A stretch of 64,000 bases of DNA from Schlesneria sp. DSM 10557 (GTDB lineage Bacteria; Planctomycetota; Planctomycetia; Planctomycetales; Planctomycetaceae): assembly GCF_041860085.1 (NCBI RefSeq), contig NZ_CP124747.1, positions 4,092,001 through 4,156,000 of the forward strand. The letters run 5' to 3'. Of this stretch, positions 50,413-64,000 are shown in pieces. The notes below the pieces were generated by a model. The model was not told the DNA's origin, did not search any database, and saw only the letters and a list, made by a program, of their open reading frames with translations. Position numbers and translations under genes: made by a program. How positions within the stretch are numbered: the first letter of the stretch is position 1; each line of letters opens with the position of its first letter.

Positions 50413-52182
50413 TCACTTCAGCCCCGGCACCCGGTTCGCCACGGCCTGACAAGGGGTGTTGTCATGGCTGAGGACCAGTTCCTTCCCGACGAAGTATGAG
50501 TGGCATTCATCGACGATCAGGTTGTACGTTGCTTCCGGATCCTGCTCTTCTGTGACGGAGTCGACCTTCGCAAATCCCCGAGCAGTGTGTAGCCCCATCC
50601 CCGGTGCCAGCGATCGAGCCTTCGTCCACCCCTTGCCGTTCACCCAGAACAGATGCCCCCCCGTCGCACGAACAACCTCACCATTGAACGACAGACGAAG
50701 TAATCGTTCCGGTGGCCGAGTGGTCGTCATCAACACAGGAGCGAACTTCAGTTCGCCGCTCTGCGGATTCTGGGTCAGCACAAGATCACCAGACTTCACC
50801 TGGTCGACCGCCAGCAATCCTGTTTCCGTCCAGATCGGTGTCCCCGCAGCCAGACATTCATGTCGAGGAGGACGGAGTTGTGCGAGGGGAGGAGCAATGT
50901 CTTGACGGCTGGTCTCATGTAAATAGGCAACCGACTTGGGCTCGGAAGGATAGGATTCAGTTTTATTATTCCACCAATCCCACCAGACTTCAGGTTTCTT
51001 GCTGCCCAGAGTCTCGTCGGTCGCCTTCCCCTCCATGGTTGCCGCCAGCAGATGCAATATCTTATCGTTCGTATCCTCGATTCGAGAATTGAGGACGTGA
51101 AGTTCCGCGTCTGATTGAATCACCTCAAGTCGAACCATCTCGCTACTGATAGGATCCTGCATCTCGTTCAGGCCGCGAAACTGGAACGTGCGGTCCAGGT
51201 CCGCGATTTTCTGCTCGCTCTGCGACTCTGCCATGAGCCTTCGGCGCCAGACAATCTCGTTCAGGCGAGTTGTCTCGATCGCGTCGGACTTTTCGACCGG
51301 CATATGCAGGGCCGCCAGGAGTTCCGGGACATAGCTATACTCGTCCCGTTCTTTAAGAAACTCCCTCGCCTGCGCTCGTACTTTCCTGTCCTGATGAGCC
51401 ATCGCGTGGCGGGCCAAAGAAATCGATGCTTCTGGAGCCGACATCGCTGCGAGCGCCTTCACCGCGCAGAGTCCCCCCGCCTCGCCCGTACTGGAAAACC
51501 AGCTCTCCAGCCCCGGAATCACAAACGGACTGTCGAACTCGCGGAGCCCCTTCAAGACAACGTCTTCCGATTTCGACTTGTCCTGCAGTGCTGCCGACAA
51601 GGCCATGAGCCGCTTGCCATGTCGACGGAGGTACGCATTCGTCGCCGCATCTCTCTTCTTCTGCTGCTCAAGCTGTTGACGGTCGAGCCAGACTCCCCCC
51701 TGTTCGACCTGACCCAGTCGACGACGAGCTTCACGGTGACCCGGATCGATTGCCACCACGGCGAATAGATGAGCCCGTTCCGCACCCGGCATCTTGTTGG
51801 CACGACAGTACTCAGCTAACTTCAACTGTTCCGCGACGGTCATCCTCGCAGCAGCCCGCTGTTCCCAGTACTTCATTGTCACCGGTTGAGCCAGCTTCTC
51901 AGCCGCAAAATCTTCCAGCGAGACCCATCGCTGTCCCACCCGAACATCACCCCGCGCCCAGTGCGCTTCCGCTGACGAAGGATCCTCACGCAGCGCCGTC
52001 TCGACCAGTTCGTTCCGGCGAGTCGCATCCAGATCGACCGCCGCCTGCAGTGCCGCCTGGACATGCCCCGCCGCAGATTCGGCCCCCTGACACGGGAAAC
52101 TCAATTCCCACAGCCCCAGCGTCGATGCGAACAGAACAGGGATAAAACGGGAAAGCAAATTGACCTGGCGCAAGGCACGCAT
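50413..52182 (-). CDS. Secreted HEAT-like repeat protein with a C-terminal Hint domain
   Basis: 589 aa. A signal peptide (SRFIPVLFASTLGLWELSF, cleavage near AES) precedes TPR/HEAT-like helices (about 45-300). A Hint (intein/hedgehog-like) domain covers 443-575: it begins with Cys443 (CLAAGTPIWTETGLLAVDQV), has GDLVLTQ and GGHLFWV motifs, and ends ELVLSHDN. Hint domains self-cleave at the N-terminal Cys by thioester chemistry; here only 14 residues follow, so no toxin passenger is attached. The usual final His-Asn is His-Asp-Asn. Planctomycetes have similar secreted Hint proteins of unknown role. Confidence 0.85.
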   Translation of the reverse strand: MRALRQVNLLSRFIPVLFASTLGLWELSFPCQGAESAAGHVQAALQAAVDLDATRRNELVETALREDPSSAEAHWARGDVRVGQRWVSLEDFAAEKLAQPVTMKYWEQRAAARMTVAEQLKLAEYCRANKMPGAERAHLFAVVAIDPGHREARRRLGQVEQGGVWLDRQQLEQQKKRDAATNAYLRRHGKRLMALSAALQDKSKSEDVVLKGLREFDSPFVIPGLESWFSSTGEAGGLCAVKALAAMSAPEASISLARHAMAHQDRKVRAQAREFLKERDEYSYVPELLAALHMPVEKSDAIETTRLNEIVWRRRLMAESQSEQKIADLDRTFQFRGLNEMQDPISSEMVRLEVIQSDAELHVLNSRIEDTNDKILHLLAATMEGKATDETLGSKKPEVWWDWWNNKTESYPSEPKSVAYLHETSRQDIAPPLAQLRPPRHECLAAGTPIWTETGLLAVDQVKSGDLVLTQNPQSGELKFAPVLMTTTRPPERLLRLSFNGEVVRATGGHLFWVNGKGWTKARSLAPGMGLHTARGFAKVDSVTEEQDPEATYNLIVDECHSYFVGKELVLSHDNTPCQAVANRVPGLK

Positions 52183-52816: not shown

Positions 52817-52890
<74 letters not shown>

Positions 52891-53601: not shown

Positions 53602-54680
53602 TCAGACAGCGAGTTCGGGAGTGACGCAAGTTGTTTGATGGAAGAGTTCTTCTGCTCTCTGCTTTGATTCAAGCTCGGATTTGGATGATCGTTCCGCGTT
53701 CTCCCGTAGCCAGTAGACGGCATTGCTTTTGACACGCAGGTTGATGACGCGACGAACGGCGCTCTCGATGGCACCACTGCCGATCGGCAGCTGGTGATCG
53801 CGCGCATGAGAATAGTCCATGCGACGATTGGTCAGTCCGTTCGTGATGAAATAGTTCAACGGGTCTTCTGGTCTTTCGTCCTGTGTGAGCCCAGTAGCGA
53901 TCGAATCTCATCGACCACTGCCCCGATCTCCCCGCCAGAGGCGTTTCTTTTGAGTCGTCAGCCAGCGCGACTTGCGACTTCCCGTGAGCGACTTACTTTC
54001 GGCAATCTTGCCCAGATATTCCATCGCGTGCCAGAAGTCGATCAATTGCTGGACCTTTTCCTCAAGGAGTCCCAGCGACTTGATCAGCTTGGGGATCCGC
54101 CGCCAGATCCAAGTGGCGCCATCCGCCACGAAGAGGATGCGAGCGGCTTCCGTCAAGTCGAGCCCCGCAGGTAGGCCAGCAGTAATGCGAACAGTTGGTC
54201 ACACGAGCCCATGGTGCCGTCAATGACGGGGCGAAGTCGCTCGCCATCCGGCCCTCTTCATCCACCGCATAGATGATGAAGAGTCGTGGTTCACGCCATT
54301 TCGGTGAGAATCCCTGCGCCCCTTCTTCGTTTTGCCTCGACGTCGCTCCCGCAAACGGACACGCCCCCATCCATCGACACCACAATCCGTCGGCCCGATA
54401 CTGTTCCGGTCGCGGTCATTGAACCGAGGTCGGTCATTCGCCGAAGTAATTGGCCCATTCCCGCAGTCACCGTTCGCAGTTGGTTGACAGAGATGCTGAT
54501 CCCTTCTTCGGCGAGCATCGTCACCGCCTCATCATAGGATCCCAGCAGTGCCGCGGCTTTCGCCATCCGCGTGCGGATTTGTGGGGTGTAATGACCGGCA
54601 ATCCCCAGCAGCATCAGCATCGGAAACAAACCCCGACGACTGTTCCCACCCGATTGGCAACGGTGGTAATACGTCACCAT
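53602..54680 (-). pseudogene. Decayed ISKra4-like transposase
   Basis: Fragments in several frames read in order: LMLLGIAGHYTPQIRTRMAK and VSGRRIVVSMDGGVSV (54680-54291), KWREPRLFIIYAVDEEGR (about 54310-54250), ILFVADGATWIWRRIPKLIK and LIDFWHAMEYLGKIAESKS (54140-53980), then LPIGSGAIESAVRRVINLRV and FHQTTCVTPELAV (53800-53602). The GSGAIESAVRRVINLR ending is what I know from ISKra4-like elements; the family name is from memory. At least three frameshifts; no intact terminal repeats recognised. Confidence 0.8.
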
Positions 54681-55667: not shown

Positions 55668-56960
55668 CAGGGCCAGCGGCAACTAAGTTGATTTTCCATA
55701 AACGACTTCGAACAGAAACTGATCGTTCCATCCGCAGGCTCGCCGTTTGCCAACGAGACTCATCTTTCCCGGATGCTGCTTGAGTAATGACAATGTAAAC
55801 CGATTCAACCAGGCAAAATTCTCTCGGGGGCGTTCATCACGCAGGCGGGATTCGTCTTCGCGATACGTAAAGTCGAGACTCCAGTGACACGTATTTTCGA
55901 TGCTCCAGTGGCTGCGGACTGCGTGAGCGAAGAGCTTAACCGCAACCGGAAGACTGCTGATAAAGTAACGAATTTCTGTCGTCTCCTTGCCATTGCCGTG
56001 GCATGTCAGCAACACCAGGCCGATCGTTTTCAATCCTTTCCAACGTTCCGCGCTGTCCAATTCGGGTGGAATCGGCATTTGAAGATAGAGACGACTCTCC
56101 TGACGGCCGTGCCCCTTTTCCTCAGTTCGATGTTTGCGGGCTCCGGCTCCTTTGAAGTCTCGCTCCATCTGCTGATCCAGGTAGTCGATCACGGCTTGAT
56201 GCAGCGTCCCTTGATTTCCTTTTAAGGCCAGCACGTAATCGGCTTCACCATTCATGATTTGCTCGGCAATCGCGGTTTGCGTTCCGATCGCATCGATCGT
56301 GATGATCGCCCCTTTCAGGTGTACCAATTTCAAAACCTTGGGGATGGCCGTGATCTCGTTCGATTTCTCTTCGCACGCGGTCTGTTGCCAACGTCATCCC
56401 GAAATCAGCCGCCCAAACGCTCACGCTGTGCAGCGGTCCCAATCCGTTTCGATGATCGTGTGTTCGCGGAGCGTCTTTCCATCCACTGCCAGGATCGGGC
56501 GTTTCACATCTGACTCCGCTTCCGCCCGGCTGCGTAATGCCGCCCGCCAAGTCGAAAAACAGGCCTGAAAAGCCTCAGGATTTACTGACGAAAGCACGCG
56601 GAGAAAGACATCCTTTCTCGGAATGCCGTTCGGCAAATCCAGGTGCTGTTGAAGCAGCTGAGCTTTGATGCGAGCCCAATGAGCGATCGCCGTCGGTCCA
56701 TCAGCTCCTGCGAGGACAGCTAACACCGCGATGACGATAATGCTGGGAAACGGATGCTTCTGATTAATGTCAGATCGTGGATCCTCCAGCGAATCGAAAT
56801 ACTCCGCGATTTCCGAAAGATCCACACTCACACGCTTGGACGTCATGACGGCCTCCGATCACAATACGATGACACTGATCAGAGATGGTTTACAGCAAAT
56901 CAGCGGCGAGCGCCACCCTCCCTATTTGGCCAAAACCACCTATAGTGCGCGCTGGCCCTG
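55668..56960 (-). mobile_element. ISAs1-family insertion sequence, inactive
   Basis: A 1293-bp element. CAGGGCCAGCG begins at 55668 and its reverse complement CGCTGGCCCTG ends at 56960, giving 11-bp terminal inverted repeats around a single transposase gene. Flanking 8-10 bp do not match, so no target duplication is visible. Size and ends suit ISAs1. Confidence 0.8.
55683..56846 (-). pseudogene. ISAs1-family transposase, frameshifted
   Basis: The N-terminal part (DLSEIAEYFDSLEDPRSD; ILAVDGKTLREHT) runs 56846 to about 56440; the middle LHSVSVWAADFGMTLATDRV is in a second frame; the rest from LVHLKGAIITIDAIGTQTAI to the stop at 55683 is in a third, with ALKGNQGTLHQAV and RSHWSIENTCHWSLDFTYRE (DDE region). 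Two frameshifts, about 56440 and 56370, inactivate it unless they are sequencing errors. Sequence identity to active relatives looks high, so the decay is recent. Confidence 0.9.
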
Positions 56961-57074: not shown

Positions 57075-57992
57075 ATGAACGGAAAAACGATTCGACTCTA
57101 TCTGGTGAACGGCTCACCGACAGACATTTTGACGGCGGAGATCATTAACTGGACCGGCAAGATCATCGTGGCTCCACGTTCGCAGCTGGCCGAACTGGCG
57201 AAACGGGAAGAAGTCCGCCGAACTGGCGTTTACTGTCTTGTAGGACCAGACCCTGAGAACGCGCTGCGTGACGCGGTCTACTTCGGTGAGGGCGATAACG
57301 TCCTGACCCGCCTGACCGCTCACGACAAGGATGAGACCAAGGACTTCTGGACGCGCTGTGCTGTGGTCATCAGTAAAGATCAGAACATCACCAAGTCTCA
57401 CGGGCGCTACCTGGAAAGTCGCCTGATCGCGATTGCCAATCAGGCCGACCGCGCCAAGATCCACAATGGCACAGCTCCGCCGCTACCCCCGCTGCCGGAG
57501 CCGGATGTTGCGGACATGGAGTATTTCCTGGGGCAGCTTCAGCTGGTGCTTCCGGTTCTTGGGTTCAACTTTCTCCAACCCAAGCCAACGGTCACCCTGT
57601 CCGGCGACGACTCGGCGACCGATGAATCGCCGCTGTTCAGCCTGAACGTAGTGGGAGCCCTGGCAAAAGCCCGAGAGTTCAACGGCGAATTCATCGTTCT
57701 AAAGGGGGCGACTGCCAGGAAAGAAGGACTGAAGTCCTGGACCTCGTATAAGGCATTGCGCGATCAGCTCGTCGAAGAGGGAAAGCTGATCGACAGTCCT
57801 CAGCCGGGATTCCTCGTCTTCACAGATGATGTTGCTTTCTCCAGCCCCAGCGCAGGCGGTGCGGTCGTTAACGCTGGGAACATCAATGGCCGGACCGCCT
57901 GGAAGACCGATGCGGGTGAGACCTATCAGGAGTGGCACGAAAAGAAGCTCGCGAATGCCACTGCTGACGATGCCACGGGCAATAGCCTGTAA
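57075..57992 (+). CDS. GIY-YIG nuclease-like protein with C-terminal DUF4357
   Basis: 305 aa. A degenerate GIY-YIG core (TGVYCLVGPDP, then DAVYFGEGDNVLTRL, GVY/YFG forms, Arg in LTRL) occupies residues 40-135, and a DUF4357-like domain lies at the C-terminus (KAREFNGEFIVLKGATARKE; DVAFSSPSAGGAVVNAGNIN). Such fusions are common near defence and mobile genes; nuclease activity is not certain. It starts the intact accessory gene block after the ISAs1 element and precedes the TIR gene by 66 nt. Confidence 0.85.
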   Translation: MNGKTIRLYLVNGSPTDILTAEIINWTGKIIVAPRSQLAELAKREEVRRTGVYCLVGPDPENALRDAVYFGEGDNVLTRLTAHDKDETKDFWTRCAVVISKDQNITKSHGRYLESRLIAIANQADRAKIHNGTAPPLPPLPEPDVADMEYFLGQLQLVLPVLGFNFLQPKPTVTLSGDDSATDESPLFSLNVVGALAKAREFNGEFIVLKGATARKEGLKSWTSYKALRDQLVEEGKLIDSPQPGFLVFTDDVAFSSPSAGGAVVNAGNINGRTAWKTDAGETYQEWHEKKLANATADDATGNSL

Positions 57993-58058
57993 GCGTGAAT
58001 GGGATGACATCAACCTTTACCGAGCAAGCGATATGTGGATCGTGTTCGAGGCGAGCGA

Positions 58059-58445
58059 ATGATGGCACAGCAAAGGGAAATCGTCGATGTGTTCCTCTAC
58101 CAGCACGGGGCCAACAAGGAATGGGTACGTACGCTTGGGGAACAGATTGAGTCTCAAACCTTTGACGGAACATCATCCGGAAGACCCATGCGAGTTTTCT
58201 TTGAAGAATGGAACACCGACGTCTGTCAGAACGTCCCTCATCGACTGGACTTGGCACTCACGGCAAGCTGTTCCGTCGCAGTCATCATCTCACCGGAAAT
58301 CCTTGCCGCACCCTGGCCGACATTTGAGTGGACGCACCTCGTTGCAGACGATCCAACCAATCGGAATGAAAGAATCATCCCGAGCTTCCTCCGAGACTAT
58401 TCATTTGCAACGGAAGACTATGCGGAGCCCCATTCAAGGCATTGA
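58059..58445 (+). pseudogene. TIR-domain protein, apparently frameshifted near its C-terminus
   Basis: The intact part (128 aa) is a TIR domain: VDVFLYQHGANKEWVRTLGE, PMRVFFEEWNTDVCQNVPHR, VAVIISPEILAAPWPTFEWT and IPSFLRDYS. The Glu in TFEW corresponds to the usual catalytic NADase residue of TIR_2 domains. After about 58425 the next frame continues with LKGIDLRSPTDFKRSFLKRI, a plausible C-terminal tail, so a 1-nt change near the CCCC at 58428-58431 has probably cut the protein. Bacterial TIR proteins act as NAD+-consuming defence effectors. Two ATGs at 58059/58062. A truncated product or a sequencing error are both possible. Confidence 0.75.
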
Positions 58446-58641
58446 AGGGAATCGACCTTCGATCTCCGACTGACTTCAAACGCAGCTTTTTGAAACGGAT
58501 CCAAAAGGTTCGCGATCAGCCGCTTAGGCGCGGACAGCGACATCGACCAATCGGGAGCAACGAATATTTACCCACGGAGGAGTTTCCCTCATCAGGGATG
58601 ATCCTAATACCAGACTACATCGTTAGGAGTGGCCTGTACAG

Positions 58642-59319
58642 ATGCAACAAACTACAACGGGACTGCGAGTCGTACGATTCCAAGAGCGTTCTCAGGCTCT
58701 GGGGCCGGGAACGCGCGCGGTCATTTGGTTTCAGGGGTGTACGTTCGATTGTCCTGGCTGCATCGCTGCGGAGATGAATCATTCTAACGATTTTGAACTC
58801 ACGACTCCCTCAGATTTGGTGGAGCGAGTTTTGAAGATCAGCGGGATTGAAGGCGTGACTTTGTCGGGAGGCGATCCGTTTGACCAGCCACTCACGTTGC
58901 TCGCGGAGTTTCTTGAGATTCTCAATCGGCAAAGTGAGTTGAGTGTGATGTGCTACACCGGGCGAACCTTGGATCAGCTTCGTCGCCGTGGGGCAAACGA
59001 CGTGACAGCGCGAATCTTGAGTCGGCTCGATATTCTGATTGATGGGCTTTATGTCGAATCGCTCAACGATGGGCGAGCCTGGCGTGGCTCGTCGAATCAG
59101 GAGATTCATTTCTTGTCACCACGATATCATCATCTCGAAACGTCAATACTCGAGAGTCGAGATCGGGAATTAGAGGTGTCGGTTGGCCCGACTCGTCAAA
59201 TTGAAATCACAGGCATTCCACCCGCTGGATTCATGGGTCGCCTGCAAGGCCAATTGAAATTGCGTGACCTTTCATTGGAATTCCATGTTCCCCGCGACGA
59301 ACAACCAGGAGCGAAGTGA
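58642..59319 (+). CDS. Radical SAM activating-enzyme-like protein (NrdG/PflA-like)
   Basis: 225 aa. The Fe-S motif CTFDCPGC (Cys33, Cys37, Cys40) follows TRAVIWFQG, and LSGGDPFDQP is the SAM-binding GGE-like motif. Size and motif spacing match activating enzymes such as NrdG, but no nrdD or pflB glycyl radical enzyme is adjacent; instead a coiled-coil gene overlaps its stop. It may activate or modify an unknown partner in the cluster. AGGAG lies 12 nt before ATG 58642. Confidence 0.88.
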   Translation: MQQTTTGLRVVRFQERSQALGPGTRAVIWFQGCTFDCPGCIAAEMNHSNDFELTTPSDLVERVLKISGIEGVTLSGGDPFDQPLTLLAEFLEILNRQSELSVMCYTGRTLDQLRRRGANDVTARILSRLDILIDGLYVESLNDGRAWRGSSNQEIHFLSPRYHHLETSILESRDRELEVSVGPTRQIEITGIPPAGFMGRLQGQLKLRDLSLEFHVPRDEQPGAK

Positions 59320-60539
59320 TGAGCGGCCCGAAGTACGGTTACATACGTCCGAGTTTTCGTGGATCGTTGCGGTCGGCCTGCACCACCATTTCCCGTGCGT
59401 GTTCTCGCTGGGGCACACCGCTGGCAATTGACGAGCTCGAGAAAGAATTGAAAGAAGCTCGACGTCAATGTCGCGAACTACGAGTCGCGGCCGAAAAGCA
59501 GAATGTCTCTCCGCGAATTGGTGAATTGTTGGACCGAATGGACGCCCGCCGTGAAGACCTGGTTCTTCTGTTCCAGGAGGAAGGACGCAAATTGGAACAG
59601 GCACAGGTGACTCGTCAGGTGCTGGATCAAGAATTGAAATCAGGTTCGTTAGCGGCCGGAGATCTGCGAGCTTCCGAGTCGCATCTTGGAACTGCCGAAG
59701 CGAATCTCAATCGAGCGCATCGCGATGCAGAAGCCGCCAACTCAGCAGCTCGGCCAGCAGTACAGAGGTTTCAAAACGGGTTGCGCGAGTTGCAACTTTG
59801 GCGATCAGAAGTCGAGCAAGTCTTGAAACCACGGCACGCGTCTCTTGGGAAACCAGCACCAGAAGAATCGCTGCAAGCTGTTCAAGAACGATTGGGACGA
59901 GAAGTTGAATTGGCTGCGCTCAAGGAAGAAGTCAGCAAGCTGGAAGTAGAGCCGGAAGGTGGATGGGATGCGGTGCGTCGGTGGGTAACGTCACAAGCAA
60001 CTATTGAAGAATGTTTGCAGCAACTCAAAGCGGCGCGATGCCAGCTTGAAGCCGGAAACATCGGGAGGGCGCGATCGGCGATTGAACGAGCGAAGTCTCA
60101 ACGCGCGGGTGCGATCGCTGAAGCCGAGCAGAATCGTCAGAACTCTGAACGAACCCAGCAGATCGCCGATGCGATCATGCAAGCACTTTTCGATCGCAAC
60201 TATGACTCTCCGAAATATGGCTTGATGAAAGATGGCGATCCGCTGTCTGGCATCCAAGTGCGAGCAGACGTTCCAAACAGAGATGGCCGCGGCAACATAC
60301 GCGTGGACATTCACCTCGACGGTCGAACGGAGTTTGAGATCGAAAACGTCGTTGAAGGAGAGGAAAAACTCTGCCGCGACGTTCTCAGCGGTCTGTCTGA
60401 GTCACTCGTACATGAGGGATTGGAGTTGGACATCACGGACTGGGGGAGGGCAAAAGATACACATCCTGGACCGGATGAGGGAACCAAAATCCCCGTGAAG
60501 TTCAAAGAGCCTGAACGGGAGCGAGAGTATCTTCGGTAG
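59319..60539 (+). CDS. MSGPK coiled-coil protein of the AAA+ cluster
   Basis: 406 aa. ATG at 59319 shares its A with the preceding TGA (ATGA-like TGATG overlap) and has AGGAG 8 nt upstream. It begins MSGPKYGYIRPSFRGSLRSA; residues 40-300 are mostly coiled coil (KELKEARRQCRELRVAAEKQ; RARSAIERAKSQRAGAIAEA), and a C-terminal alpha/beta part (GNIRVDIHLDGRTEFEIENV; SESLVHEGLELDITDWG) may be a small separate domain. I recall other MSGPK-starting coiled-coil proteins of unknown function, but cannot name the family. Translation is coupled with the radical SAM gene. Confidence 0.8.
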   Translation: MSGPKYGYIRPSFRGSLRSACTTISRACSRWGTPLAIDELEKELKEARRQCRELRVAAEKQNVSPRIGELLDRMDARREDLVLLFQEEGRKLEQAQVTRQVLDQELKSGSLAAGDLRASESHLGTAEANLNRAHRDAEAANSAARPAVQRFQNGLRELQLWRSEVEQVLKPRHASLGKPAPEESLQAVQERLGREVELAALKEEVSKLEVEPEGGWDAVRRWVTSQATIEECLQQLKAARCQLEAGNIGRARSAIERAKSQRAGAIAEAEQNRQNSERTQQIADAIMQALFDRNYDSPKYGLMKDGDPLSGIQVRADVPNRDGRGNIRVDIHLDGRTEFEIENVVEGEEKLCRDVLSGLSESLVHEGLELDITDWGRAKDTHPGPDEGTKIPVKFKEPEREREYLR

Positions 60540-60619
60540 TCTATTGATAAACCGAGTATTTTGCTTTGCTGGGCGTGTGGTGATTTGCCCATACTTCGGG
60601 TTTGTTTTAGAAATCCTCT

Positions 60620-63600
60620 ATGAGTCAGCCTACCAATGATCGACTTCGTGAGTTATTCCTGCCGGTTCAGGGACGCAAATTGGCAATCCTTTCTGGAAAG
60701 GCCGTTGGCGACCTCTTTTATTTGGGCGACGCATTTGGCGCCAGACGGCTTGTTGAGGCCTTGCATTGTTTGGGATCGGCCTCTGGCTTTGAGTTGATTC
60801 TCTCATTTAACTCGCAAGGTGCCCCCCGATTCGATACCGAACTCATGAAGAAGCGGTTCGAGGAAATCGCTCGGGGAACGACGAGAGAACGCGCGGATGA
60901 GCCACCAAAACAGGAGTTTCAGCCGCGCCCACGAAATGGTGCTTCGAAGGGAGTGCCCGTTCAGCCCGGCACTGGGATGGCAGAGTCAGTCGCACGGACA
61001 GAAGCCGTCGCCAGTCCCAATCTCCGAATACTACTCGGACAGCTTGAACGTGTCTTGCGCGGCCGAGAGCGCGTGCTGGCAGTCTTTGAACATCCCGAAG
61101 ATCTTTGGTTTGGCGCGATTACAGAACAAGCAAAAGACCACCTGAAACAGGCGGCTGCTCTGGCTTTGGTTTCTGAAGGCCATCCTGAGTCGCGTGTAAT
61201 TTTTGTCGTTCGTCCGGCCCGACAAGAAGAAATATTGGACGTCCTTGACCGCATTGAAGAAACAGAGCATTTTCGAGAAGTGATTCCGCTATCGGCCCCT
61301 AGCTCTCTTGAGGTTCGAGGGTTCTTGAACTTTGCAATGAACCGAGAAGGACTACTTGGAGCAAGGGAGCACGTCGTTGCGGAATGGACGCAACGAGGCA
61401 GGTTATTGCACAACCTCAGGGAATCAATTCGCAGCATTTGTCAGTTGCCGCCCGAGCAACGGCGCATCGAGCGTGTCCTCGAAAGAAACACAGTTGAAGA
61501 AACGGTCGAAGATGTTCTTCGCGAACTCGATCAGATGGTTGGCCTGAAGTCTGTGAAGGACCAAGTAGCGGCGTTGATGCAGTTGGCTGAGCAGCAATTG
61601 GACGAGCTTAGGGAAGGCCGATTGTCAGAACCGATCACAACCCACATGCTGTTTCTGGGGAATCCGGGTACGGGCAAGACCGTGGTTGCTCGACTTGTCG
61701 CTCGATTCTTGAGGGCCTGCGGACTGCGATCCAGCGGTAATGTTGTCGAAATCTCACGATCAGACATCGCCAGTTCATTCAACAGCGGGGATTGCATTCA
61801 GCAGATGAGATCTGCAATTGATCGAGCCACAGGTGGCGTGCTGTTTGTGGACGAGGCGTATCAATTCGCCGAGGGTGAATGGATGCGCGGCGCGTTGGAA
61901 ACTCTGATGAAGGACATGGAAGACCGAAGGGCCACTCTGACAGTGATCTTCGCCGGTTACGAAGAACAGATGCAGGGATTATGGAACGTCAATCCAGGCT
62001 TCCGCTCGCGTATTCCTGAGTCCAACTGGATTCGCTTTCCGGACTACTCATTCGAGGAAATTTCCGAGATCTTTCGGCGTGAGTGTGTCAAACGTCAATT
62101 GGTGTTAACGCCAGATGCCGAACAATCAGCATTACGGTTCCTCGGCGCGGAGTTGAAGCGACACCGACTCGGAAACGGACGTGGTGTGCGAAATCTCGTC
62201 GATCAGATTGTCCGCAACCGTGCAGCTCAAGGTGGTGGTCCTGTCTCTCCGGCAATGGTGCCCGAGACCACTCGCTATGACAACGACCGTGTCCAGGACC
62301 TTCTTACGAACCTGAACACGGATTTTGTTGGACTCAAAAACCTGAAGGAGTTTTTGCAAAAGACGGCATTGCGCGCTCGTCGGGCGGAGGAATGCGGAAC
62401 GCTCGTCGAAGGTTTTTTGCATTGCCGATTCGTGGGGCCGCCGGGAACAGGGAAAACATCTGTTGCTCGGCGTGTCGGCCAGATTTTCCACGCGATGGGA
62501 TTGTTGAGTCACGGTCGCGTTCGAGAGGTGAATCCTGTTTCCCATTTCGGCTCACAATACGTCAGCCAATTCGCTGAACAAGTGGCCGAGCAATTCCGCT
62601 TGGCCAAGGGGGGCGTGCTGTTCATCGACGAAGCCTATCAGCTTGCCGAACAAGACCAGGGTGTGCAAATCATCCACCAAATTGTGCAGACGCTCACACA
62701 GCCGACGTTTGCGGACACGCTCGTAATCATGGCGGGATATCGTGATCCAATAAATCGACTGCTCGAACGTAATCCCGGCCTGGCGAGTCGCATTCCTAAC
62801 GAAATTGTGTTTGAGCAGTTCTCCGTTGATGAATTAGCCGCCTTGTTTCATCGCGAATTGGAAAAGAGAGATCATCTCGTTCGCTCTGACGAGCGCGAGA
62901 CATTTGATGGTGGCTTGAGGCCACGGATTAGTCGAGAGCGCGGTGATCCGCACTTCGCGAATGCGCGTTCATTGCAAACTTTGGTTGATGAAGTTCTCGA
63001 TCACCAACGAGCGCGAATCGAAGCGACTGGCGATCCACAGAGGATGCGTGTTCGACTTGAGGACTTGGGAGTGTCTCAGGCTACGTCAGAAGACATCCAG
63101 CGACTCATGCAGGAGTTGGACGATCGCTTCGTGGGCATGACGACTGTTAAAGATCAAATGCGCGACATTGCAATTGACGTCCAAATGCAGGCTGAACTCG
63201 GTGGCCAGTCTCCAAAGGCTCCTCGAATGTTGTTCCTGGGCAATCCGGGCACCGGAAAGACCAGCGCAGCGAGGGAACTTGCTCGTCTTTTGAAAGCCGT
63301 GGGAGCAGTGGTCAGCGACCGATGGGTGGAAACTCGTGGCACGGAATTGAAGGGATCATTTCTCGGCCAGACCAAAGACAAGGTCATCGAGGTCATTGCG
63401 GACGCTCGCGGCGGCGTACTATTTATTGACGAAGTTTACTCTCTGGGAAATGACTGCGGCGGAATGGATAGCTACGCCTTGGAAGCAATTGATGCGATCG
63501 TTGGGCAAACGGAACTGCCTGAGAACGTGCAGACAGCAATTATTTTGGCGGGCTATTTGAAACCAATGCGTGCCTTCTTGGGAACCAATCCTGGATTGGC

Positions 63601-63934
63601 GAGACGATTCCCGGCCACAATCTCGTTTCCGGATTATTCAGATGAGGAGTGCCTTGAAATCCTTCAGCGTTGGTTTGTCAGAACTCAGTCAGGCCTAACC
63701 TTGCCCATTGAGAAGCCTGGCGTGCGTGACACATTACTGTCCGCGATTGGCCAGCGGCGTTTGCGACCTCATTTTGGAAATGCCGGCGACATTGAAGAGC
63801 TCGGCCAGCGCATTGTCTCAGCCAGGAATTCACGACTTCATCAACTGCCACAGACCATGTGGCGCGACCAATCGCGGCCGACCATCGAAGACATCAATCG
63901 GGGGGTGGAGCAATGGCTCACAGGACTGATGTAG
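60620..63934 (+). CDS. Triple AAA+ protein of CbxX/CfqX (SpoVK-like) type
   Basis: 1104 aa. After a ~290-residue N-terminal region without recognised domain come three AAA+ modules, each preceded by a VGLKSVKDQV-type segment: Walker A LGNPGTGKT (Lys353), VGPPGTGKT (Lys612) and LGNPGTGKT (Lys880), with Walker B GVLFVDEAYQF, GVLFIDEAYQL and GVLFIDEVYSL. CbxX-type AAA+ proteins act as remodelling chaperones (for example on Rubisco). Three in tandem is unusual; the first and third Walker A are identical, suggesting internal duplication. It is 80 nt after the coiled-coil gene and overlaps the next one. Confidence 0.92.
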   Translation: MSQPTNDRLRELFLPVQGRKLAILSGKAVGDLFYLGDAFGARRLVEALHCLGSASGFELILSFNSQGAPRFDTELMKKRFEEIARGTTRERADEPPKQEFQPRPRNGASKGVPVQPGTGMAESVARTEAVASPNLRILLGQLERVLRGRERVLAVFEHPEDLWFGAITEQAKDHLKQAAALALVSEGHPESRVIFVVRPARQEEILDVLDRIEETEHFREVIPLSAPSSLEVRGFLNFAMNREGLLGAREHVVAEWTQRGRLLHNLRESIRSICQLPPEQRRIERVLERNTVEETVEDVLRELDQMVGLKSVKDQVAALMQLAEQQLDELREGRLSEPITTHMLFLGNPGTGKTVVARLVARFLRACGLRSSGNVVEISRSDIASSFNSGDCIQQMRSAIDRATGGVLFVDEAYQFAEGEWMRGALETLMKDMEDRRATLTVIFAGYEEQMQGLWNVNPGFRSRIPESNWIRFPDYSFEEISEIFRRECVKRQLVLTPDAEQSALRFLGAELKRHRLGNGRGVRNLVDQIVRNRAAQGGGPVSPAMVPETTRYDNDRVQDLLTNLNTDFVGLKNLKEFLQKTALRARRAEECGTLVEGFLHCRFVGPPGTGKTSVARRVGQIFHAMGLLSHGRVREVNPVSHFGSQYVSQFAEQVAEQFRLAKGGVLFIDEAYQLAEQDQGVQIIHQIVQTLTQPTFADTLVIMAGYRDPINRLLERNPGLASRIPNEIVFEQFSVDELAALFHRELEKRDHLVRSDERETFDGGLRPRISRERGDPHFANARSLQTLVDEVLDHQRARIEATGDPQRMRVRLEDLGVSQATSEDIQRLMQELDDRFVGMTTVKDQMRDIAIDVQMQAELGGQSPKAPRMLFLGNPGTGKTSAARELARLLKAVGAVVSDRWVETRGTELKGSFLGQTKDKVIEVIADARGGVLFIDEVYSLGNDCGGMDSYALEAIDAIVGQTELPENVQTAIILAGYLKPMRAFLGTNPGLARRFPATISFPDYSDEECLEILQRWFVRTQSGLTLPIEKPGVRDTLLSAIGQRRLRPHFGNAGDIEELGQRIVSARNSRLHQLPQTMWRDQSRPTIEDINRGVEQWLTGLM

Positions 63935-64000
63935 CACCGATTACGGTCTCTGACGCCGTAAGAAAGTTGGCGACGCAGAGTCAGCGAAGTGACGACCCTG
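63913..64000 (+). CDS. Start of a further gene of the AAA+ cluster (partial)
   Basis: ATG at 63913, with GGTGGAG upstream, opens a frame MAHRTDVAPITVSDAVRKLA running to the window edge (29 codons). It overlaps the 3' end of the AAA+ gene by 22 nt, as expected in a coupled operon. The product cannot be identified from this fragment. Confidence 0.55.
   Translation, partial: MAHRTDVAPITVSDAVRKLATQSQRSDDP

Follow-up and report, generated by a model that had tools for sequence, protein, structure and literature searches.

The genome of Schlesneria sp. DSM 10557 raises the question of what a small radical S-adenosylmethionine (SAM) enzyme, resembling the activase NrdG, acts upon when its gene shares a stop/start overlap with that of a coiled-coil protein and stands just ahead of that of a large AAA+ ATPase. 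The three genes lie at the end of a stretch of 64,000 nucleotides (4092001-4156000 of the single-contig, 7.07-Mb genome), referred to here as the window. The best explanation is that they form the core, a three-gene module of radical SAM enzyme, coiled-coil protein with a recurrent N terminus (the MSGPK family) and AAA+ remodeller, within a larger bpMoxR-containing operon of the nucleoside triphosphatase (NTPase)-dependent conflict-system type. A first-pass annotation of the window had described genes in one direction with short gaps or overlaps, a 225-residue radical SAM protein, a coiled-coil gene sharing its stop/start, a three-module AAA+ protein and an overlapping next gene, and all of this is borne out, every gene that it named being found on the + strand where it had been placed. 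It saw the cluster only as far as position 64000, where the window cuts a longer operon, and missed bpMoxR and a giant downstream protein: on the same strand, the operon continues to position 82788 in window-equivalent numbering. From the radical SAM gene onward it comprises, in this order:

58642..59319, + strand: NrdG-like radical SAM enzyme, 225 residues (Pfam Fer4_12 5.7e-28, Radical_SAM 3.7e-8)
59319..60539, + strand: MSGPK-family coiled-coil protein, 406 residues, characterised through family alignments, profile comparison and an AlphaFold model
60620..63934, + strand: AAA+ protein, 1104 residues, with a probably degenerate N-terminal AAA-like domain and three CbxX/SpoVK-type domains
from 63931, + strand: 282-residue coiled-coil protein, its gene overlapping the AAA+ gene and running past 64000
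beyond the window, same strand: 342-residue protein
beyond the window, + strand: bpMoxR AAA+ protein, 396 residues (PF20030 3.9e-46; P-loop GPPGTAKS at residue 86)
beyond the window, same strand: proteins of 514, 1145 (coiled coil) and 169 residues
window-equivalent 72511-82788 (L004:512-10789), same strand: 3425-residue protein; hydrophobic stretches around residues 43, 104 and 453

Intergenic gaps within this tight run (58642-82788) range from -4 to +80 base pairs (bp), and the stop codon of the radical SAM gene overlaps the ATG of the coiled-coil gene (TGATG).

Whether the three core genes belong together can be judged from their recurrence elsewhere. A scan of one genome per species (84,980 species) with a three-sequence alignment of the radical SAM protein gave 273 relatives, the best 80 of which were kept, and in these loci, some of them from near relatives (e.g., three Trichodesmium), the AAA+ type is present at 46 and the coiled-coil family at 42, the latter recognised with two alignments, A4 and A5, that are built from the window protein and 26 sequences of these loci, which they match by construction. 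Both partners occur at 35 loci and the coiled coil without the AAA+ type at seven, and in many loci the coiled-coil gene directly adjoins, and often overlaps, that of the radical SAM enzyme. Radical SAM, coiled-coil and CbxX-type AAA+ genes lie side by side in a Planctomycetota bin (L065; radical SAM protein 49% identical, AAA+ 7e-210, and a match to the next coiled coil at 2e-5), in Desulfobacterales (L072), Bacteroidia (L109) and Anaerolineae (L118), and in Flavihumibacter/Chitinophaga (L132/L139). A 988-residue protein sits between coiled coil and AAA+ in Candidatus Brocadia (L119), some cyanobacterial loci (L081, L089) have these parts spaced more widely, together with Hsp70, and other cyanobacterial, Streptomyces and Riflebacteria loci carry a ClpB-like AAA+ protein, a name that, like Ycf46-like below, was given by eye.

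Searches in the reciprocal direction agree. A5 matches five of 146 cyanobacterial genomes, four of which have a radical SAM match on the same strand within 12 kb (one of the four being the source of the radical SAM query and of an A5 row), and A4, at E<=1e-6, matches two of 294 planctomycete genomes (the own genome and G117), in both of them adjoining the radical SAM gene. Reading the flanks with A5 at E<=0.01 brought up a further four planctomycete loci with the coiled coil (L042, L047, L050, L059), two of them weak (L042, L050). On plasmids, the radical SAM protein matched 132 of 72,556 records; twelve regions were fetched, and in eight of the ten with a usable gene table an AAA family ATPase is annotated no more than two kilobases, or a few genes, away from it, the exceptions, without AAA near the radical SAM gene, being Geminocystis and one sparsely annotated region. 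Judged by these sequence comparisons, radical SAM, coiled-coil and AAA+ genes recur jointly in several phyla, beyond chance. The first-pass annotation had proposed a multi-part system in which the radical SAM enzyme modifies a partner handled by the AAA+ machine; of this, the gene linkage holds, and some relatives stand beside conflict genes, while the modification of a partner is something we infer.

That proposal is made specific by the N terminus of the coiled-coil protein, which in the window reads MSGPKYGY and recurs across the family. A4 comprises the CbxX-linked (15 members) and A5 the ClpB-like-linked (12 members) coiled-coil proteins, and the two are related (hhalign 98.6%, E 5e-16, 258 columns); the sequences of A4 are 11-29% identical to the window protein. 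Only M1 and S2 are invariant in A4, with K5, one Leu and one Asn at 93% and G3 at 87%; A5 has 17 invariant columns, M1, S2 and K6 among them. The pattern MSG-x(0,2)-K occurs at the first start codon of 24 of 43 family open reading frames (ORFs) versus none of 1316 other ORFs (>=150 residues, same loci), a contrast for which a Fisher value is merely indicative, the family ORFs being kin. This count uses the first start codon only, because the starts of some alignment rows had been trimmed to the motif (window, L097, L132 and L139 in A4; L110, L116 and L122 in A5). Among 39 N termini hand-picked from profile matches and neighbours, S2 is present in 38, G3 in 32 and K at positions 4-6 in 38. L135 was counted as a family match (1e-9), though without the MSG start.

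An AlphaFold model of the window coiled-coil protein (mean predicted local distance difference test score, pLDDT, 64; predicted template modelling score, pTM, 0.43) has long helices and a C-terminal alpha/beta region, with residues 1-37 below 50, and the N terminus is thus probably disordered. No Pfam model is dedicated to the family: none of the 12 A5 members matches Pfam at 0.001, and the matches in A4 (two of 15 to ATG17_like, one of 15 to Apolipoprotein, ~7e-5) were taken as coiled-coil noise. The same holds for the 22 matches of A4 to PDB sequences up to E 0.1, headed at 5e-5 by a de novo helical bundle and apolipoproteins, and a match in G290 (E 7.7e-4, 28% across the coiled coil) was treated as chance. 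Foldseek with the model found nothing at E<=0.001, and the protein had no match on plasmids or phages.

The radical SAM protein shares with NrdG and the pyruvate formate-lyase (PFL)-activating enzyme the radical SAM domain and the motifs CX3CX2C (at residue 33), GPGxR and RGSxNQ. The best solved match of its family profile (A1) is the PFL-activating enzyme (positions 5-154 of 212, E 2.8e-16). Unlike NrdG, it falls short of the TIGR02491 cut-off (93.3 versus 126.1 bits) and has no NrdD in its genome (99.78% complete), the same search being positive in 6 of 14 controls; because NrdD is missing, it is not an activase of ribonucleotide reductase. Viral contigs, searched by single-protein patterns, hold no relative of it. 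Glycyl-radical activases act on a glycine in a partner protein, and therefore the adjacent gene, whose product begins with a flexible MSGx(P)K, is the natural candidate for its substrate.

Walker A, Walker B and Arg-finger motifs each occur three times in the AAA+ protein, which also has three stretches each matching Pfam AAA (1.1e-40) and AAA_lid_6; among solved structures it matches CbbX and EccA1. Each of its three modules resembles CbbX, SpoVK or EccA, from which it differs in having all three in one chain behind an additional, probably degenerate domain. Residues 1-293 have no Pfam match and align by profile with the N-domains of the ClpB-like-linked AAA+ proteins (97.1%, E 5e-11). A model of this N-domain (pLDDT 71, pTM 0.69) gave 20 PDB matches at E<=0.001 in Foldseek, 19 of which are, by titles in which the matched chain is not named, AAA+/STAND-type ATPases or complexes (RFC, ORC/Cdc6, NSF/Sec18, TnsC, NLRP3, proteasome and others), and one (mouse cytoplasmic lattice) not classifiable by title. 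Because the Walker A pattern (GxPGTGKT) occurs only at residues 347, 606 and 874, the modelled domain is probably an inactive or degenerate AAA domain.

A rival reading is a housekeeping operon, in which the genes would serve activation of Rubisco (CbbX) or of anaerobic ribonucleotide reductase, or sporulation (SpoVK). In its favour are the NrdG-like character of the radical SAM protein and a TIGR02881 (SpoVK) score of 472.5 against a cut-off of 422.95 bits, but that score is a whole-protein one summed across three domains. The CbbX profile (TIGR02880) reaches 423.7 of the 459.25 bits needed, the operon proteins have no Pfam match that points to a metabolic partner, and the cluster was not seen in any other genome sampled from the phylum. 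With both the NrdG and CbbX cut-offs missed and NrdD lacking, those two assignments are rejected and SpoVK is unlikely; the possibility of a known housekeeping activase operon, which had been named as a point to check, is largely refuted, and we regard it as very improbable.

We favour a mechanism in which the coiled-coil protein would be modified by the radical SAM enzyme, through hydrogen abstraction, within the flexible MSGx(P)K peptide at its N terminus. Using both its CbxX rings and the degenerate AAA domain ahead of them, the AAA+ protein would grip this partner and hydrolyse ATP to remodel it. A signal might then pass, in the direction that we suppose, from the remodelled assembly to MoxR and to the giant protein, the one with hydrophobic segments, and these two together would constitute a membrane-proximal effector against an invader. 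Given hosts such as cyanobacteria and Streptomyces, a stable modification seems preferable to a standing radical. To this reading as a whole, a radical SAM enzyme that modifies the coiled-coil N terminus and an AAA+ protein that remodels the coiled coil as a switch in a conflict system, we assign a probability of roughly 40%.

Several observations weigh against it. At 27 of the 80 radical SAM loci neither partner lies in the flank (some of these contigs end early, others do not), and at 11 the AAA+ type occurs without the coiled coil; the check whether the genes are unlinked elsewhere nevertheless did not overturn the proposal. Among the 294 planctomycete genomes, 24 have the radical SAM family and only two of these 24 match A4 at E<=1e-6, a sparseness from which it follows that the family often serves other partners. 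The motif itself varies, as L072 (MSA), L109 (MSQ) and a few others start MSA, MSQ, MSS or MST rather than MSG, and the coiled-coil proteins of Polaromonas and Leisingera have no MSG start and no A4 or A5 match themselves, being joined to the family only via L047 and L059, each of which has a match to them as well as to A5. On the AAA+ side, TM-scores of the top 20 Foldseek matches are low (0.28-0.44), and the N-domain is unmatched by profile to Ycf46-like or FtsH-like N-domains. The operon proteins match no vWA, bpX, fvmX or FtsH-M41 in Pfam, a library that does find ivWA in L049, though a vWA too divergent for it may be present. Lastly, the occurrence of the family in cyanobacteria and Streptomyces, according to the species-level scan, makes a long-lived glycyl radical, which oxygen would harm, less likely.

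Some of these points would suit a different division of labour, with MSGx(P)K as a docking or entry tag for the AAA+ ring, which remodels the coiled coil, and the radical SAM enzyme modifying something else, be it a nucleotide, a small molecule or a different protein of the operon. Such a tag would fit the low-confidence N terminus of the model, the frequent lack of a coiled coil beside the radical SAM family, the weak match of the Polaromonas plasmid radical SAM protein to viperin profiles (7e-6), and the greater constancy of S2 and K over G3, which suits recognition as well as chemistry. The adjacency of the coiled-coil and radical SAM genes in many loci, often with overlap, speaks against it, as does the best solved match of the enzyme, a protein-modifying activase; we hold it to be a possible but doubtful alternative.

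Upstream of the tight run are two genes that we count as neighbours rather than core:

57075-57992, + strand: DUF4357 protein (DUF4357 E 1.3e-14; PADLOC candidate PDC-S14 E 2.1e-113)
58035-58445, + strand: TIR_2 fragment, frameshifted (Pfam TIR_2 E 1.2e-9)

The first had been labelled GIY-YIG/DUF4357, of which the DUF4357 part stands, no GIY-YIG profile having matched. The second accounts for the TIR gene that had been placed in the cluster and was thought perhaps to gate the system; it is there, as a fragment with stops in all three frames ahead of the radical SAM start, 196 bp from the tight run. A defence system centred on a TIR NADase, with the other genes as accessories, could draw on this fragment and on the TIR genes at the Brocadia and Chitinophaga modules, the two other places where one was seen, no systematic search for TIR at other loci having been made. 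The frameshift and the 196-bp gap led us to reject TIR as part of the system in the window, which leaves such a defence system, like gating by this TIR, with very little credibility.

The cluster looks like an accessory island. Its guanine-plus-cytosine (GC) content is 52-56%, compared with 58-60% between 44 and 52 kb in the window; the coiled-coil protein is present in one of 59 relatives searched and the AAA+ protein in one of 392 phylum genomes (E<=1e-60, two candidates scored per genome), in both cases the own genome. A tRNA-Arg lies at 52817-52890, with transposase-like ORF pieces, named by eye, between it and the cluster (55683-56846, 53602-54680 (- strand)); as an attachment site it was rejected, since no second copy of the tRNA end was found out to window-equivalent 91000. 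Also named by eye are a C-terminal Hint/intein-like stretch in the protein at 50413-52182 (- strand) and, past the far end of the operon, a kinase-like protein of 434 residues without a Pfam match (- strand, window-equivalent 82830-84134, L004:10831-12135).

If modification of the coiled-coil N terminus is correct, radical post-translational modification would be a trigger of AAA+-driven immune assemblies, and an orphan radical SAM family would gain a concrete candidate substrate in the short N terminus that recurs on variable coiled coils in several phyla. One may go further and propose, tentatively, that the stand-alone NrdG-like enzyme marks MSGx(P)K of a fast-evolving coiled coil and so licenses interchangeable AAA+ machines (CbxX, ClpB-like, perhaps Ycf46-like and FtsH), making it a radical trigger shared by several conflict systems, widespread and undescribed. 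As a separate observation, at three loci (L009:6718-9585, L062:4564-8257 and L120) the radical SAM family stands beside an AAA+ protein that looks Ycf46-like by eye, with DUF1257 and/or DUF2997 proteins. DUF1257 we take to be Ycf35, and the pairing might offer a lead on plastid Ycf46 and Ycf35.

An antiphage role is suggested by neighbouring genes, the examples of which were chosen rather than sampled, so that no enrichment is claimed. One radical SAM gene of this family lies beside FtsH, ivWA, bpMoxR and fvmX5 (G164, L049). In Chitinophaga, GAP1-N2 immediately precedes the radical SAM gene, two genes before it have DO-GTPase matches just below the Pfam cut-off, and a TIR_2 gene follows the AAA+ gene on the opposite strand. 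Candidatus Brocadia has a WD40-TIR protein between coiled coil and AAA+, then Hsp70 and DO-GTPase2; upstream of that module are eight tandem kinase-like genes (L177:1125-18975), all protein kinase by phmmer, in an array that looks diversified and of which one gene, checked against Pfam, is kinase plus TPR. The Polaromonas plasmid locus includes an MkoA-like helicase (5.9e-102), and four plasmid clusters (L008:1-9618, L010, L011 and L014) contain a large AAA-domain protein (the MkoA-like helicase in L008), PIN, a hypothetical protein, an AAA ATPase and the radical SAM gene, and are candidates for being Mokosh-related.

No publication on the set of radical SAM, MSGPK and AAA+ genes was found, as judged by titles and abstract openings. 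The passages searched in PMC8195603 have no radical SAM, CbbX or ClpB, and CbxX, CbbX, SpoVK, EccA and MSG are absent from the main text, as searched, of the account of MoxR-vWA ternary and DO-GTPase conflict systems by Kaur et al. (2020; PMC7159879). In the parts of that account drawn upon here, the FtsH kind of ternary system has an inactive first AAA domain, and its simpler subtype includes a radical SAM gene, whose product is described there as a likely modifier of a peptide effector. The operon in Schlesneria might accordingly be an atypical ternary system, of the beta-propeller or FtsH kind, with a triple CbxX protein in place of FtsH and otherwise not new. Its bpMoxR (3.9e-46, with a GxxxTAKS P-loop) and the G164 locus are consistent with this, as are those published features (PMC7159879). 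PF20030, which matches 21 of 22 records and also 12 of 14 control genomes, is a generic MoxR profile. In the nearest bpMoxR neighbourhoods (11 of 14 non-own places fetched) there is no match at E<=0.01 to the 342-, 514-, 1145- or 3425-residue proteins, and in one of them (L229) the MSGPK protein finds a single coil-like match, at 1e-3; the 514-residue protein also has no plasmid match, and the 3425-residue protein none of significance in Pfam or PDB. The closest relative, L065, has the radical SAM enzyme, MSGPK coiled coil, AAA+ protein and next coiled coil, but no match to the window bpMoxR in the ~60 kb read. Because the MoxR feature is present but vWA, FtsH, bpX and fvmX are all unmatched, we do not file the operon as a member of the ternary systems, and an atypical one seems unlikely.

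Set beside the known systems, then, the three-gene module within its bpMoxR operon is close to several without coinciding with any. With the FtsH ternary kind it has in common, as far as the consulted parts of PMC7159879 describe that kind, a MoxR with a GxxxTAKS P-loop, a radical SAM gene (in one subtype), an AAA+ protein with an inactive first AAA domain and helical proteins, whereas the window has triple CbxX rather than FtsH-M41 and no vWA (ivWA) or fvmX match; the inactive first AAA-like domain is the only feature of the FtsH component common in kind to the window AAA+ protein. The beta-propeller ternary kind, as depicted in the same parts (PMC7159879), offers bpMoxR, a vWA fused to a beta-propeller, a large third protein with membrane segment, TPR and propeller, and a range that includes planctomycetes; the window operon has bpMoxR, and its 3425-residue protein, with hydrophobic stretches, may correspond to the third protein, but it differs in the want of a vWA or bpX match, and its radical SAM and CbxX genes are extra. 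Unlike the DO-GTPase/GAP1-N2 systems, the window operon has no GTPase or GAP1 match in Pfam; it is the Chitinophaga and Brocadia modules, the latter with Hsp70, that adjoin such genes, and thus some relatives of the module lie in or beside published conflict systems.

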